IMG/VR virus record: IMGVR_UViG_3300032235_000166
Location: 1 to 30,026 of that record
Origin: a virus
Direction: 5' to 3' (one strand)
Length of the DNA: 30,026 nucleotides
Shown: one piece after another, positions 2,725 through 10,226 of the stretch
How the letters are laid out: each line of letters starts with the position of its first letter
Numbering within the stretch: the first letter of the stretch is position 1
Notes under the pieces: model-generated
Told to the model about the DNA's origin: nothing
The model's input: only the letters and a program-made list of their open reading frames with translations
Databases searched by the model: none
Translations under genes and position numbers: made by a program

Positions 2725-2894
2725 TTTATGATTACAAGTGTGATACCTGCAAGTGTGAACTCACTATCGAACGTAGCATCCACGCTGAGGCTAACGCACC
2801 TATCTGCTTTGACTGCCATACACCTATGGATCGTGTCTATGGCGTAGGTGGTATCAAGTTTAACGCACCTGGTTTCTACTCTACTGGAGGTTAA
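2721..2894 (+). CDS. FmdB-like zinc ribbon protein
   Basis: A 57-aa ORF starts at the ATG overlapping the upstream TGA (ATGA, 2721-2724) and ends at TAA 2892-2894. It reads MIYDYKCDTCKCELTIERSI, then ICFDCHTPMDRVYG, and ends GGIKFNAPGFYSTGG. The paired Cys motifs and the final KFxxxGFYxTG are typical of FmdB/regulatory-protein zinc ribbons, which are widespread as tiny proteins in actinobacteria and their phages. Function is unknown; nucleic-acid or protein binding is likely. The GGAGG inside its last codons forms the ribosome site of the next gene. Confidence 0.8.
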   Translation: MIYDYKCDTCKCELTIERSIHAEANAPICFDCHTPMDRVYGVGGIKFNAPGFYSTGG

Positions 2895-2895
2895 C

Positions 2896-3471
2896 GTGTC
2901 TGACTATCCTAATTGGTTTGCTACCGGTGCTCAGCCCAACTTTGCTACGTATCTGATACAAGATGCTGGCTTACCTAACCTAAAGTATCTTCAACTCGGT
3001 GCCTTCACAGGAGATGCCAGTGTGTGGTTAATGAAGAACATACTTACTGACCCATCATCTCATCTATTCGATGTTGATACGTGGCAAGGTAGCGATGAAG
3101 TAGCGCACCACTCTATGGACTTTGATGATGTTTACTCAGTGTATAAAGATAAGGTTAAAGATCTCTCTATTACATCTGTTGTTATGCGTACCGATGATTA
3201 CCTGATACGTGTACGTGAAGTCTTTACAGATTCTTTTGACTTCATCTACATTGACGCAGACCATACAACAGTAGGTGTTTTAATGGACGCTGAACTAAGC
3301 TGGCCTTTGCTCAAGTCCGGTGGCATTATGGCATTTGATGATCTTACGTGGGGCGCAGACTTGCCTCCCTCTCAATCGCCTAAAGCTGGCATCCTCCTCT
3401 TTGCTGAACGCCATAAGGAAGAGTTTGATTTAGTTGTTGCTAACACTCAGTATTGGATTAAGAAAAAGTAA
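2896..3471 (+). CDS. Class I SAM-dependent methyltransferase (family 24-like)
   Basis: The 191-aa protein has LKYLQLGAFTGDASVWLM in place of the SAM-binding glycine loop, an acidic motif HLFDVDTWQGSDE, and FDFIYIDADHTTVGVLMDAE followed by LLKSGGIMAFDDLTW. This order is typical of Methyltransf_24 enzymes, which act on sugars or small molecules rather than directly on DNA. The GTG at 2896 is chosen because GGAGG (2886-2890) lies at good spacing, whereas an upstream in-frame extension would run deep into the zinc-ribbon gene. Substrate is unknown; modification of a virion glycan or a host metabolite is possible. It is the last gene before a convergent junction. Confidence 0.75.
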   Translation: MSDYPNWFATGAQPNFATYLIQDAGLPNLKYLQLGAFTGDASVWLMKNILTDPSSHLFDVDTWQGSDEVAHHSMDFDDVYSVYKDKVKDLSITSVVMRTDDYLIRVREVFTDSFDFIYIDADHTTVGVLMDAELSWPLLKSGGIMAFDDLTWGADLPPSQSPKAGILLFAERHKEEFDLVVANTQYWIKKK

Positions 3472-3529: not shown

Positions 3530-4168
3530 TTATTCTAGCACATTAAACAGTTGTTTGCCTATCTCATAGGTATAAATCGGTGGTATTGCTTCCACTAATT
3601 CTCCCCAGATCATCCAGTCAATTCCCATAGCTTGACGTGCTTCCTCTATTGACTTAGCAGTATGTCCACCTTTAGGTATCTCATCACGCATAGATCCATA
3701 GATACCTACCGGCTTACCCTGTTCTTTGTGATTACAGACCGATCCGGTAATCTCCAAGTTGGACTCAAAAAGTCTATGTCTACGAACCTTTAACCCAAAT
3801 GATGAACCGCAGAATTGTATTGGGTTAATCAACGGTGCTCCCGGAACGTTTTCTATTACATAAGGTTTGCCTGATTTAATCAAAGCCTCTCTTGTTTGCG
3901 GTATCAGATCTACCTTGTCCGTACTCTTCCCCTGTGCGTTACGCAAATGTTGAGTACGAGAGTGGGTTTGGCAAGGTGGACTGGCTGCTATCACATCAAA
4001 GGTGCGTAGATAATCTATATCCTTTAGGATCTCCAAGCAGTCAGCCTGTATGAACTCATATGGATAGCGCTTCTGCTTCTTTATATCTATCCCTGTAACA
4101 GTGAAGCCAGCATCGGCATAGCCTTTGCTCGCTCCCCCTGCTTTACGGTATAGGTCTAGTAACTTCAT
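3530..4168 (-). CDS. C5-cytosine DNA methyltransferase
   Basis: The 212-aa product contains the C5 methyltransferase core. Motif I is variant (DLYRKAGGAS, 5-14, instead of DLFxGxGG). The catalytic Pro-Cys is in ASPPCQ (62-67), ENVPGA (106-111) is motif VI, and RRHRLFE (129-135) is motif VIII. The protein is short for the family, with a compact target-recognition region, as in many phage versions. The ATG at 4168 overlaps the TGA of the upstream lysis-type gene (ATGA), which argues against the longer in-frame start at 4210. It is the last gene of the leftward operon and probably modifies phage DNA to evade restriction. Confidence 0.88.
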   Translation of the reverse strand: MKLLDLYRKAGGASKGYADAGFTVTGIDIKKQKRYPYEFIQADCLEILKDIDYLRTFDVIAASPPCQTHSRTQHLRNAQGKSTDKVDLIPQTREALIKSGKPYVIENVPGAPLINPIQFCGSSFGLKVRRHRLFESNLEITGSVCNHKEQGKPVGIYGSMRDEIPKGGHTAKSIEEARQAMGIDWMIWGELVEAIPPIYTYEIGKQLFNVLE

Positions 4169-4605
4169 CAGTACCACCCTCTCCTGTCTGAGTGGGCAAG
4201 AGCGCGGCACGCACTTCCTCGATAGCGATGTTCAAGGTATCGTATACCGTGAAGGATTTGTAATTCAGGTTCTCGACTACGCTCTCCAAGGAGTTGAGCA
4301 ATTCCGAAAGCTGAACTAATTGGTTTGCCCTGAGAGTCTCGTGGGCGAGCGAAGTGGTCAAGCCTGCTCTCACGGGTCCATAGGGTGATAAGACAGACTT
4401 GCTCTTTCTTACTGTATCCAAGTGCTCGTGAGTAACTAACGATAAGTGTCTTGTTCTCACGCTTTTCCTCCATTGTTGCTTTTCTTTCTTTTACGACTAG
4501 ATTTTTTGGGTGCTCTACGACCTGATGTACTGGTTCGGGTGCGAACACCCACAGTAACATAAGGGCGATCATCAACAGCAAACCACTTAACACCTTGCTC
4601 TTCAT
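4168..4605 (-). CDS. Membrane-anchored transglycosylase/lysozyme-like cell-wall hydrolase
   Basis: From the ATG at 4605 the 145-aa protein has a short basic start, then a hydrophobic segment (LSGLLLMIALMLLWVF, about 6-21), a signal peptide or anchor. The C-terminal half, with LITLWTRESRLDHFA, then SAFGIAQ, GIRYLEHRYRGSACRALAH and the final GWY, matches SLT/lysozyme-like domains in which the Glu of TRES is catalytic. It should cleave peptidoglycan during lysis. The N-terminal third overlaps the upstream basic gene in another frame by 149 bases. An ATG at 4473 would give a cytoplasmic form with little overlap. A purine-rich GGAGGAGGAG stretch precedes 4605 but also encodes a Glu run in the other frame, so the start is uncertain. 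Confidence 0.72.
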   Translation of the reverse strand: MKSKVLSGLLLMIALMLLWVFAPEPVHQVVEHPKNLVVKERKATMEEKRENKTLIVSYSRALGYSKKEQVCLITLWTRESRLDHFARPRDSQGKPISSAFGIAQLLGERSREPELQILHGIRYLEHRYRGSACRALAHSDRRGWY

Positions 4606-6990: not shown

Positions 6991-7527
6991 TTAATAGTTG
7001 CGGAATACGTGTCCGCCGTCGGTTATGAAAAAATCATAAAATAAATCTCTAGTGTACGCCTCTAGATCAAAATATCGGGCAAGGAAAGAGTTAGAGTCTA
7101 GCTCTCCTGTACCCTCCAACAGCTCTTGAGCGAAAGCCTCCGCGCTGTCGTAGTGTCCCATATAGGCATCCTCATAGTTAGAAAAATCGGGAGATCCTCC
7201 TACGTGTTCGCAATACTCTAAAAAAGCCTCCCGATCATATTCTGGCACACTGTCTATTTTCTCCGCAATATCTTGTGCCTCTTGTGGGTTGCACTCTCCC
7301 GTTAATAGACCGCCAAAATTCTCGTGATCGAATACCCAAAATTCATCGCTATGGCATAAAGCGCAAAAGGTAACGCCGTTTTTTTCATAGCTCTTTAAGT
7401 GTTCGCCGTAAGTAGTTGCCTCTAATCCCTCCAACCATATGCCGTTTAACATCCCGCCGTTATAGCAACCTAAGCAACCAACCCACGCGCGGGGGGTTGC
7501 TGTCTGTGTCTGTGTGTCTGTGTTCAT
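6991..7527 (-). CDS. ardA: ArdA-like antirestriction protein
   Basis: The 178-aa protein follows the ArdA layout: an N-terminal WVGCLGCYNGGMLNGIWLEG (15-34), FWVFDHENFGG (63-73), a central acidic domain with YEDAYMGHYDSAEAFAQELL, and a C-terminal ARYFDLEAYTRDLFYDFF. ArdA proteins are elongated acidic DNA mimics that occupy type I restriction-modification enzymes and block cutting of incoming DNA. Two CxxC pairs (Cys18/21 and Cys55/58) could form a zinc site. The ATG at 7527 follows AAGGAATAAGTA, and a near-consensus promoter lies about 45 bases upstream of it. As first gene of the leftward operon it would be expressed on entry. Confidence 0.85.
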   Translation of the reverse strand: MNTDTQTQTATPRAWVGCLGCYNGGMLNGIWLEGLEATTYGEHLKSYEKNGVTFCALCHSDEFWVFDHENFGGLLTGECNPQEAQDIAEKIDSVPEYDREAFLEYCEHVGGSPDFSNYEDAYMGHYDSAEAFAQELLEGTGELDSNSFLARYFDLEAYTRDLFYDFFITDGGHVFRNY

Positions 7528-7605: not shown

Positions 7606-7668
7606 TACCATTTTACAATAATCTTTTACCGTGTCGCGGGATAGTTGCTAGGTTATTCGATAGCGGCA

Positions 7669-7826
7669 AGAGCTAAGAGATCGGCAGACTAGAGCCAGGA
7701 GATAGGGCGAGAGCTGCGAGATGTTAGAGCTATCGGGTGAGCAGCTGCGGGGTAGAGCTGCGACGGGTGAGAGCTTGCGGGTTATCGGCTTAGCTATTAG
7801 AGAGTTATTTAATTTAGGGTGAGAGC
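7669..7826 (+). repeat. Degenerate AGAGC / GGGTGAG repeat cluster
   Basis: AGAGC occurs at 7669, 7691, 7710, 7726, 7754, 7770 and 7822, with an AGAGAG variant at 7799; spacings are irregular (16-29 bases, then 52 across the variant). GGGTGAG occurs at 7735, 7765 and 7817, and the 10-mer GGGTGAGAGC is exact at 7765-7774 and 7817-7826. The units also share GCTGCG and TATCGG. The cluster lies behind the leftward promoter in non-coding DNA, the usual place for operators, replication iterons or enhancer-like sites. Confidence 0.55.
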
Positions 7827-7934: not shown

Positions 7935-7963
7935 TTGATTTTACGCGTGTTCTTTACTATACT
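7935..7963 (+). promoter_or_regulatory. Rightward promoter toward terL
   Basis: TTGATT (7935-7940) and TATACT (7958-7963) are separated by exactly 17 bases. The -10 matches five of six bases and the -35 four of six. Transcription would begin near 7970, giving a leader of almost 400 bases before terL with several hairpins and a terminator. The weak -35 leaves room for an activator or alternative sigma factor. Confidence 0.55.
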
Positions 7964-8011
7964 CCCCAAATAAATATATTTCCTAAAGTGAAATGGTGAT
8001 CTGGTAAAACC

Positions 8012-8252
8012 GCAGGTCAGCTATTAAAAACCTGTGATGTGTACCACAAATATAAAATATTTTTTACCAACGCGGGAAATGAGTTAAATTTCCTGCCTTC
8101 TATATAGTAGGGGCTGTAAGCAGGGGAAGCCCCGAATGGTGCGCTACGCTACCGCTCCGCGAGTCCCCTAAGGACGAGCGCTGACTTACCCCTCACTTCG
8201 CTGTGGCTCGTTCGGGCGCTAAGCCCGACCAGTACCTGCAGTCGCAGGTTTT
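8012..8252 (+). ncRNA. Hairpin-rich structured leader upstream of terL
   Basis: Stems in order: CAGGT/ACCTG (8013-8017 with 8030-8034), GGAAAT/ATTTCC (8075-8080 with 8088-8093), GGGGCT/AGCCCC (8110-8115 with 8128-8133), GTCC/GGAC (8163-8166 with 8172-8175), TCGGGC/GCCCGA (8212-8217 with 8223-8228) and ACCTGC/GCAGGT (8234-8239 with 8244-8249). CTTACCCCT (8185-8193) can instead pair with AGGGG plus TAAG (8109-8113, 8117-8120) across a 3-base bulge, which excludes the GGGGCT hairpin. The competing pairings and the terminal hairpin suggest an attenuating or antiterminating leader, or a separate small RNA. No known family is recognised. Confidence 0.45.
8234..8252 (+). terminator. Intrinsic-type terminator upstream of terL
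   Basis: ACCTGC and GCAGGT form a perfect 6-bp stem with a 4-base loop AGTC, and the transcript continues into TTTTAG. The T-run is short, so termination may be partial. It follows the TCGGGC/GCCCGA hairpin by 5 bases and would end transcripts from the rightward promoter before the terminase gene unless read through. Confidence 0.5.
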
Positions 8253-8363
8253 AGTTGGGATAGTTCTATCAAATTCCTAGACCGGTATTTTATTAAAAAC
8301 ATCCTCAAGCCGGTATAAACGAAGAAGGCATTCCGCGCCACTCGGCGCTTTGAGGAGATATAC

Positions 8364-10226
8364 GTGGCAGAGAATTCCGCCGACATAGCCAAGAGAATTA
8401 TCCTTGGCTGTGTAGCAGAGGGTATGACCATAGAGCAAGCCTGCGCTTCAGCCGGTAAGTCTATGAAGACGTATGAGTACTACCGTCGTACCGACAAAGT
8501 ATTTACAGATAAAATTGATCGTACCCGTCTCGGTCTAAAGGACAAGTCCTTTGCCTCAGGCGATGTCCACGATATCAGCTTTGAAGAATTCCGTGAGCGC
8601 TTTCTGCACTCCAAGACTTTCGCCCATCAGAAGAACATCGTAGATGTCATCGAGGGCAGGACGCCCCACTGGTTACACCCCGCTATGAAGTATGAGCCAG
8701 GTGTTGCCAATAACCGCATCCTTATTAACATCCCGCCAAACCACGCCAAGTCTATGACGATAACCGTGGACTATGTAACGTGGATGGTAGCACAGAACCC
8801 GAACTTTAGAGTCTTGATTGTTTCCCAGACTCAGCGACTAGCGGCAGACTTTCTCTACGCTATTAAGCAAAGACTGACCCACCCAATGTATGAGCAACTC
8901 CAGCAGGCTTACGCCGCTGGTGTCGGCTTTAACTCTAAGTCTGCATCGTGGCAGGCTACCCGTATCACCTTCGGAGATGAACTCCGCGAGTCAGGTGAAA
9001 AGGATCCAAACATTGAAGCCGTCGGTATCGGCGGTCAGATTTACGGCAAGCGTGCCGATATGATTATTGTAGATGACGCAGTTACTTTAAGTAACGCCAA
9101 TGACTTTGAGCGTCAGATTAAGTGGCTAACGCAGGACGTCCGGTCCCGTCTTAACCCAACGGGTAAGTTAATTATTATCGGTACACGTGTAGCCTCAGTA
9201 GATTTATACAAAGAACTACGCAACGAAGATAGATACCCAGGCGGTCTAGTACCGTGGACCTATCTAGCAATGCCAGCGCTTTTAACGGCTGATGAGAACC
9301 CCGACAAGTGGGAGACTTTGTGGCCTGCATCAGATGCACCTTTTGACGGTCAGGCTGAATCCGATAAGGATGAGGTTACTGGACTATACCCACGCTGGTC
9401 AGGCCGCAACTTATTTAATGAACGACAATCAATGGATGCCTCAACGTGGGCATTGATCTACCAACAACAGGACATATCAGATGACTCTGCTTTTGACCCT
9501 GTATGTGTTCGTGGTTCGATTGATGGAATGCGTAAGTCGGGTCCGTTAACCGCCGGCCATCCTGGACATCCGCGAGACCTAAACGGCTTTAGTATTATCT
9601 GTGGGCTAGACCCTGCAATGATTGGTGATACTGCAGCTATCTGCTACGCCATTGACCGCAGTACGAATAAGAGATACATCGTAGATGCTATCAAGATTAC
9701 TCGTCCATCGCCTGCAGCTATCCGTAACTTAATATTTGACTGGACCTCTATCTACTCACCGAGTGAGTGGATTGTAGAGAAGAACGCTTTCCAGTCCTTC
9801 CTTACGCAAGATGAAGGTATCCGTCAGCACCTAGCAACACGTGGCGTTCAATTTAAGGAACACCATACCGGTCAGAACAAATGGGATGCTGGATTCGGTG
9901 TTGCATCTATGGCAAGCCTATTCGGTACCAAGCAACACGATGGCAAGCACCATCGAGATAATCTTATTCACTTACCTTCAGATCAGACTGAGAATGTCAA
10001 GGCTCTGATAGAGCAGTTGATTACCTGGTCACCAACTACTAAGGGTAAGACTGACTTAGTAATGGCGCTTTGGTTCTGTGAGATCCGCGCCCGTGAGATG
10101 CTCAACTACGGCAAGTACTCAAAGCATCACCTAGCAAACCCATTCCTCTCTCGTCACGAGATAGGCAAGCGAACAGTTGTCAACCTAGATGAACTATTCG
10201 CAGAGCAAAACAAAACGTTCATCTAA
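8364..10226 (+). CDS. terL: Terminase large subunit
   Basis: The 620-aa packaging motor has a P-loop variant INIPPNHAKS (121-130), Walker B MIIVDD (233-238) and a C-terminal nuclease with GLDPAMIGD (414-422) and VEKNAF (471-476) as metal-site segments. It cuts concatemeric DNA and pumps it into the prohead through the portal. The first 60 residues (MTIEQACASAGKSMKTYEYY) look like a small helix-turn-helix, as in small terminase subunits, and no separate small-subunit gene precedes it; this may be a fused DNA-recognition domain. The GTG start follows GAGGAGATATAC. The structured control region lies directly upstream. Confidence 0.93.
   Translation: MAENSADIAKRIILGCVAEGMTIEQACASAGKSMKTYEYYRRTDKVFTDKIDRTRLGLKDKSFASGDVHDISFEEFRERFLHSKTFAHQKNIVDVIEGRTPHWLHPAMKYEPGVANNRILINIPPNHAKSMTITVDYVTWMVAQNPNFRVLIVSQTQRLAADFLYAIKQRLTHPMYEQLQQAYAAGVGFNSKSASWQATRITFGDELRESGEKDPNIEAVGIGGQIYGKRADMIIVDDAVTLSNANDFERQIKWLTQDVRSRLNPTGKLIIIGTRVASVDLYKELRNEDRYPGGLVPWTYLAMPALLTADENPDKWETLWPASDAPFDGQAESDKDEVTGLYPRWSGRNLFNERQSMDASTWALIYQQQDISDDSAFDPVCVRGSIDGMRKSGPLTAGHPGHPRDLNGFSIICGLDPAMIGDTAAICYAIDRSTNKRYIVDAIKITRPSPAAIRNLIFDWTSIYSPSEWIVEKNAFQSFLTQDEGIRQHLATRGVQFKEHHTGQNKWDAGFGVASMASLFGTKQHDGKHHRDNLIHLPSDQTENVKALIEQLITWSPTTKGKTDLVMALWFCEIRAREMLNYGKYSKHHLANPFLSRHEIGKRTVVNLDELFAEQNKTFI

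Follow-up and report, generated by a model that had tools for sequence, protein, structure and literature searches.

A conserved and structured RNA, which from sequence comparison very probably represents a new and apparently undescribed phage RNA family, precedes the large terminase subunit gene (terL) in the window, the whole 30,026-nt stretch analyzed here (positions 1 to 30,026 of the IMG/VR virus record IMGVR_UViG_3300032235_000166). The RNA is predicted to be ~140 nt long in the window, with a likely start at ~8112–8116, a likely end at 8252, and a likely forward orientation, and is followed by terL (8364–10226, forward strand, GTG start; phrog_38, E 8.9e-64). The original prediction of a structured RNA before terL was borne out by compensatory changes in two hairpins (P2 and P5) and by conservation in relatives. 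Hundreds of freshwater virus contigs carry this RNA, which provides a one-copy marker for the group; the cultured phages nearest to them infect actinobacteria, among which is the dominant lake order Ca. Nanopelagicales.

Linkage of the RNA to terL

At least 598 IMG/VR stretches (~600 contigs) encode a terL relative, 80 of which were fetched. Judged by terL, the nearest phages in the databases are Planktophila phages E7 and F5 (~47% identity), which were the first to be isolated on Ca. Nanopelagicales and also encode a sigma-70 factor (PMC10202952). This kinship suggests an actinobacterial host, and the viruses form an abundant freshwater group that is probably associated with actinobacteria. 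A terL-based search of species genomes returned no relative, and a DNA-level search of the phage collection returned no homologue. Elsewhere in the window, we noted a sigma-like gene (1664–2341), a counter-restriction set of three DNA methyltransferase-like genes and an ArdA-like anti-restriction protein (1027–1716, 2848–3471, 3530–4210, and 6991–7527), and a noncoding, GAG/AGAGCT-rich segment (7640–7800) that separates the leftward genes from the late region and is possibly a packaging or origin site.

The position of the RNA was assessed with two context-free searches that ignored genes, one using a 3′ motif (TTACCCCTCNNTNCGCTGTNGCT) and the other a 5′ motif (CCTTATATATAGTANGGGAG). Among the matches listed for the 3′ motif, terL lay downstream on the same strand in 113/113 testable loci (116 loci, three being left out as contig ends), at a distance of 106–723 nt. 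The same arrangement was seen in 93/93 testable loci with the 5′ motif, a count that leaves out nine further loci near a contig end. The motif TACCCCT(C) occurs once before terL in nearly all loci with enough upstream DNA, and a covariance model of the 3′ half found exactly one strong copy per genome in all nine near-complete relatives (37–41 kb, E < 1e-15). Neither the Planktophila phage E7 nor the Streptomyces phage Percastrophe gave a significant match to this model, and a remote P5/P6 copy sought in both of these and in the lake group L360 was not significant (best E 0.13–1.5). Searches of the window and ~30 relatives against Rfam 15, under both normal and permissive settings, gave no RNA family above the gathering threshold, tRNA and a 16S fragment aside, the best sub-threshold matches being ~16 bits and on the wrong strand.

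The linkage survives inserted ORFs and tRNAs (spacing up to 723 nt), which fits control of the whole operon and argues against translational control of terL. A tRNA gene sits between the RNA and terL in the relatives L022, L058, and L069, small ORFs do so in other loci, and an ~80–90 nt block flanked by GATAG..CTATC copies occupies this position in L001, L017, L020, and L021.

Hairpins and their conservation

Fold energy provides only modest evidence for structure, while the comparative evidence is strong. The region from 7935 to 8252 (318 nt) folds at −95.3 kcal/mol (z = −2.40), with 1/100 shuffles as stable, in keeping with the expectation that it would fold better than shuffled controls; this did not extend to the 144-nt core of the window alone (z = −1.14). 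The core of 50 relatives gave a mean z of −1.63, with 38% below −2. Given that fold energy alone was not decisive, the relatives were used for comparison. A covariation test on the whole alignment, without division into classes, was blurred by class differences. The E-values and shuffles reported here leave in some relatedness of the sequences; the repeated compensatory changes in P5 and the many P2 stems do not rest on these statistics.

The best-supported helix is P5 (8190–8216, forward strand; CCC-UC-AC...GC-UGUG-GC...GU-UC-GGG), which contains the conserved UUACCCCUC. It is composed of C8190–8192 paired with G8214–8216, a UC/UC internal loop, 8195–8196 paired with 8210–8211, and G8200-C8201 paired with G8206-C8207 around a UGUR loop. 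Across 51 distinct sequences, 94.7% of cells were paired compared to 85.8% when shuffled, with 36 doubly changed cells against 15.7 and four of the seven pairs changed on both sides; the covariation score was reached by 0/500 shuffles and was destroyed by sliding the partners. The pair 8196:8210 switched between GC and CG on 13 tree branches (listed transitions), its covariation exceeding a tree-based null both in class A1 and overall, and in L249 all seven nucleotides pair (CCCUCGC/GCGAGGG). Two other candidates in this region were discarded: a helix between GAGC (8176–8179) and GCUC (8206–8209), which did no better than shuffles, and a pseudoknot reading of 8195–8196/8210–8211, which was replaced by the nested P5 hairpin.

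Compensatory changes were likewise noted in P2 (GGGGCT, 8110–8115, with AGCCCC, 8128–8133; forward strand). P2 forms a perfect stem of 6 bp or more in 69% of 135 relatives, compared to 10% of shuffles, and complementarity is kept despite wide variation across about a dozen different stem sequences (GUAAAAC/GUUUUAC, GCAAAGC/GCUUUGC, GCAAAUC/GAUUUGC, GUAAAGU/ACUUUAC, GUAGAC/GUCUAC, GGGGAGUGAA/UUCACUCCCC, and others). The stem of the commonest class, GUAAAAC/GUUUUAC, has GGGA/GACC on its flanks, and these could make a tandem GA loop with closing G-C pairs; in L249, full pairing would take the place of that loop.

The next two hairpins, also on the forward strand, complete the central part of the RNA. 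P3 (8140–8163) is weak in the window, with three Watson–Crick pairs and a GU, and relatives have CUCGC/GCGAG, CAUCGC/GCGAUG, or GCCUC/GAGGC at this place. The P3 loop of class A2 members is complementary to a segment just before UUACCCC (e.g., AAACCUUC/GAAGGUUU, AAGCCUC/GAGGCUU, and GUUGG/CCAAC), the longest complement averaging 5.66 nt with its own partner against 4.68 ± 0.16 with partners swapped. P4 (GUCC-CCUAA-GGAC, 8163–8175) shows mostly complementary NCC/GGN arms, with GCC/GGC in 64 and UCC/GGA in 26 of 116 sequences (base counts) and other combinations in the remainder. A hammerhead-like reading of P4 (GAGUCC..GGACGAG) was rejected, as the GAAA core is missing and Rfam was negative.

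P6 (UCGGGC-GCUAA-GCCCGA, 8212–8228, forward strand) shares its 5′ strand with P5 and was found in many, though not all, clades. Its cells were paired in 67% of cases, reached by 0/500 shuffles, with only a weak excess of double changes; stems include CGGGAG/CUCCCG (L149 and L194) as well as UGCUCGG/CCGAGCA and UGUUCGG/CCGAACA (L038 and L056). One clade (e.g., L212, L215, and L225) keeps P2, P3, and P4 with terL still downstream, and lacks UUACCCC, P5, P6, and the terminator region. Directly after the RNA lies GGGATAGTTCTATC (8257–8270), which is conserved in a 103-sequence alignment and is kept in the clade without P5/P6.

Promoter-like box and upstream signals

Just before P2 lies a conserved −10-like box, TATATAGTA (8101–8109, forward strand), the pattern TATATAGT(A) at 8101 being present in 96% of 137 relatives compared to 5.5% of shuffles. 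This box is likely the promoter of the RNA, and its position would place the start site at ~8112–8116. The original prediction had instead placed a 17-base-spaced promoter at 7935–7964 (TTGATT-N17-TATACT), which is present in the sequence as described and is conserved in only 11/127 relatives under a strict definition (9%) and 25/127 under a loose one (20%).

Several further signals lie upstream of the −10-like box. CTAAAGT at 7983 is kept in 90% of relatives. A palindrome of the form TGTGA-N6-CCACA (TGTGATGTGTACCACA, 8033–8048) is centered ~73 bp upstream of the predicted start, and GTGA-N7/8-CAC at these positions occurs in 90% of relatives compared to 0.5% of shuffled sequences. TGTGA-N6-TCACA is the consensus of CRP/FNR-type regulators, and the protein binding TGTGATGTGTACCACA may be a CRP-type regulator. 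An inverted repeat (GCGGGAAAT/ATTTCCTGC, 8072–8096), which could serve as an operator or hairpin, lies just upstream of the −10-like box, and its arms, as judged by eye, co-vary in relatives (CGGGAAAT/ATTTCCCG and GGCAGGAAA/TTTCCTGCC).

The more distant terL relatives, comprising Streptomyces Beephvirinae (43% identity), soil contigs, and a lake group, show no recognizable sequence similarity to the RNA. They share an order of signals consisting of CCCGGGGGTTGTTAA, AGTCCCC, TGTGA-N6-TCACA, TATATATA(A/C/G)T-GGGG, hairpins, and terL, and a perfect TGTGA-N6-[TA]CACA lies upstream of terL in most of the distant Streptomyces and soil phage loci. The combination of TGTGA-N6-TCACA and TATATATANT-GGGG may be an ancient region for late gene control in this lineage of terminases. 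The loci L305–L359, L360–L366, and L199 carry TGTGA-N6-TCACA palindromes, often in two copies, together with TATATATANT-GGGG before terL. Three contigs from three datasets (L361, L362, and L374) start at the same base, which lies upstream of terL and 8–10 nt past a TATATAGGGG box. If the datasets are metatranscriptomes, these starts could be transcript 5′ ends; this reading was set aside, as the contigs may come from a single virus population in which assembly broke at the same point.

Terminator and possible function

The RNA in the window ends in a good intrinsic-terminator-like hairpin, ACCTGC (8234–8239)-AGTC-GCAGGT (8244–8249) followed by TTTT (8249–8252), on the forward strand. As originally described, this phage thus has a terminator before terL, although the feature is clade-specific and not general. 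It occurs in 82% of class B, 78% of other or mixed classes, and 57% of class A1, with shuffles at 3–10%; it is rare in class A2 (24% vs. 3% of shuffles) and at shuffle level in class C (4%).

These frequencies bear directly on the proposal that the RNA is an attenuator, in which mutually exclusive terminator and antiterminator helices would be switched by a ligand, protein, or translation. The terminator in the window is real, and the UCGGG strand common to P5 and P6 would allow some strand exchange. Conserved and mutually exclusive terminator and antiterminator helices were, however, not found. The helix originally proposed, between CTTACCCCT (8185–8193) and AGGGG (8109–8113) plus TAAG (8117–8120), is present in the sequence and shows no compensatory change; in relatives it breaks, with 8117:8188 pairing in 47/112, 8120:8185 in 42/112, and 8110:8192 in 82/112, part of the mispairing at the last reflecting an alignment shift in class C. 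CCCCUC pairs with UCGGG in P5 rather than with AGGGG, and L018 and L095 lack GGGG yet keep CCCC. The competition proposed between this helix and the GGGGCT/AGCCCC hairpin is not supported. Covariation, which had been put forward as the check, was thus passed by the RNA and failed by the specific competing-helix switch. P6 does not overlap the terminator stem, and the only perfect partner seen for the 3′ strand of the terminator (AAAACCTG, 8027–8034, with CAGGTTTT, 8245–8252) lies upstream of the conserved promoter; this pairing is not kept in L002. As the terminator is absent in class C, rare in class A2, and lost in the clade without P5/P6, a universal terminator/antiterminator attenuator is excluded, and an attenuator in any form appears very unlikely.

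The broader proposals, an antitermination RNA or a small RNA controlling the late genes, are plausible. We tentatively read the RNA as a 5′ leader at the head of the late operon that influences RNA polymerase in cis, and put the chance of this a little short of even. Transcription would begin from the TATATAGTA promoter, where a regulator bound to the TGTGA-N6-CCACA palindrome would assist RNA polymerase, and the nascent leader would fold into a constant core of P2-P3-P4 together with P5/P6. The fold would then act in cis on the polymerase, through pausing or read-through, and so let late transcription continue through terL and the structural genes. Where a clade has the terminator, a short RNA would be the default product and read-through the regulated step, as at lambda pR′-tR′. 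The hairpins with compensatory changes, the strict terL linkage, the single copy, the −10-like box, and the clade-specific 3′ terminator support this model. As two classes lack the terminator or seldom have it, control of read-through would not be the whole function.

The HK022 put RNA is a cis-acting antiterminator of early operons that has two hairpins and suppresses terminators downstream of it with no need for phage proteins. Like put, the RNA here would be a folded nascent RNA near a phage promoter acting on RNA polymerase. The lambda pR′-tR′ region with Q, comprising a promoter, short leader, intrinsic terminator, and late genes, has the same layout as the window, and lambda Q requires DNA elements in the promoter rather than a conserved folded RNA (PMC6606751). 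This promoter-leader-terminator order directly before late genes is found in the window and not in all clades, so that, in contrast to the lambda late leader, the terminator of the RNA here is not universal.

Several clades have a discrete promoter and terminator, a layout that fits a trans-acting small RNA as well as it fits a cis leader. Such a stand-alone noncoding RNA, whose target would be packaging or the transcription or translation of the host, and whose terL linkage would reflect co-inheritance or shared late timing, is possible though rather doubtful. Its own −10-like box, its own terminator in several clades, and the strongly conserved UUACCCCUC and CGCUGU, which are typical of a protein-bound or tertiary-folded RNA, speak for it, whereas the terminator is absent in class C and mostly so in class A2, P5/P6 are lost in one clade, and no copy away from terL was found in motif or covariance-model searches. 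An actinophage precedent exists in the noncoding RNA of the Cluster A mycobacteriophages L5, D29, and StarStuff, which is likewise promoter-driven and of unknown function and is abundant and stable, its region being toxic to M. smegmatis (PMC5712189). That RNA, however, is ~500 nt long and does not precede terL, being transcribed from Pleft, an early promoter at the right end of the genome (PMC5712189).

The phi29 pRNA, too, is a noncoding RNA of a phage, similar in size and tied to packaging genes. The Rfam model of phi29 pRNA had no match in the window or relatives, and terL here belongs to an ordinary large-terminase group (phrog_38) rather than encoding a phi29-type packaging ATPase. That one of the most abundant freshwater virus groups has in this RNA an undescribed class of RNA machine, either a compact, pseudoknot-capable leader directly reprogramming actinobacterial RNA polymerase for late transcription (an RNA-only antiterminator) or a second, unrelated packaging RNA, seems improbable. 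We found no description in the literature of late gene activation in phages of this kind; the promoter and RNA module before the late operon opens the question to direct tests, and would bring to light either a new small RNA of phages or a control of RNA polymerase based on RNA.

Finally, the inverted repeats could belong to a DNA-level site (cos/pac, a replication origin, or an operator cluster) and only resemble RNA hairpins, a reading suggested by the adjoining terL, the palindromes, and, in some relatives of class A2, pairs of TTATCCACA repeats that resemble DnaA boxes and separate the RNA from terL. We consider this highly improbable, as internal-loop hairpins with a conserved UGUR loop, one-strand U-runs, and a well-placed promoter box fit an RNA better, and the record of the Streptomyces relative Percastrophe starts ~667 bp upstream of terL, which would put a cos end outside the RNA. 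In L035, L042, and L045 (class A2), the paired TTATCCACA repeats lie directly before terL and suggest a replication origin or DnaA-type regulation. The window itself carries direct repeats of CCGGTAT between the RNA and terL (8282–8288 and 8310–8316), a possible operator or promoter pair, and relatives carry other repeat words (CAGCTAAT, CCTAGTA, and AACCAGGTATAAAT) that match within one phage. Overall, repeats of at least 8 nt occur between the RNA and terL in 34% of relatives, compared to 4% of shuffles.
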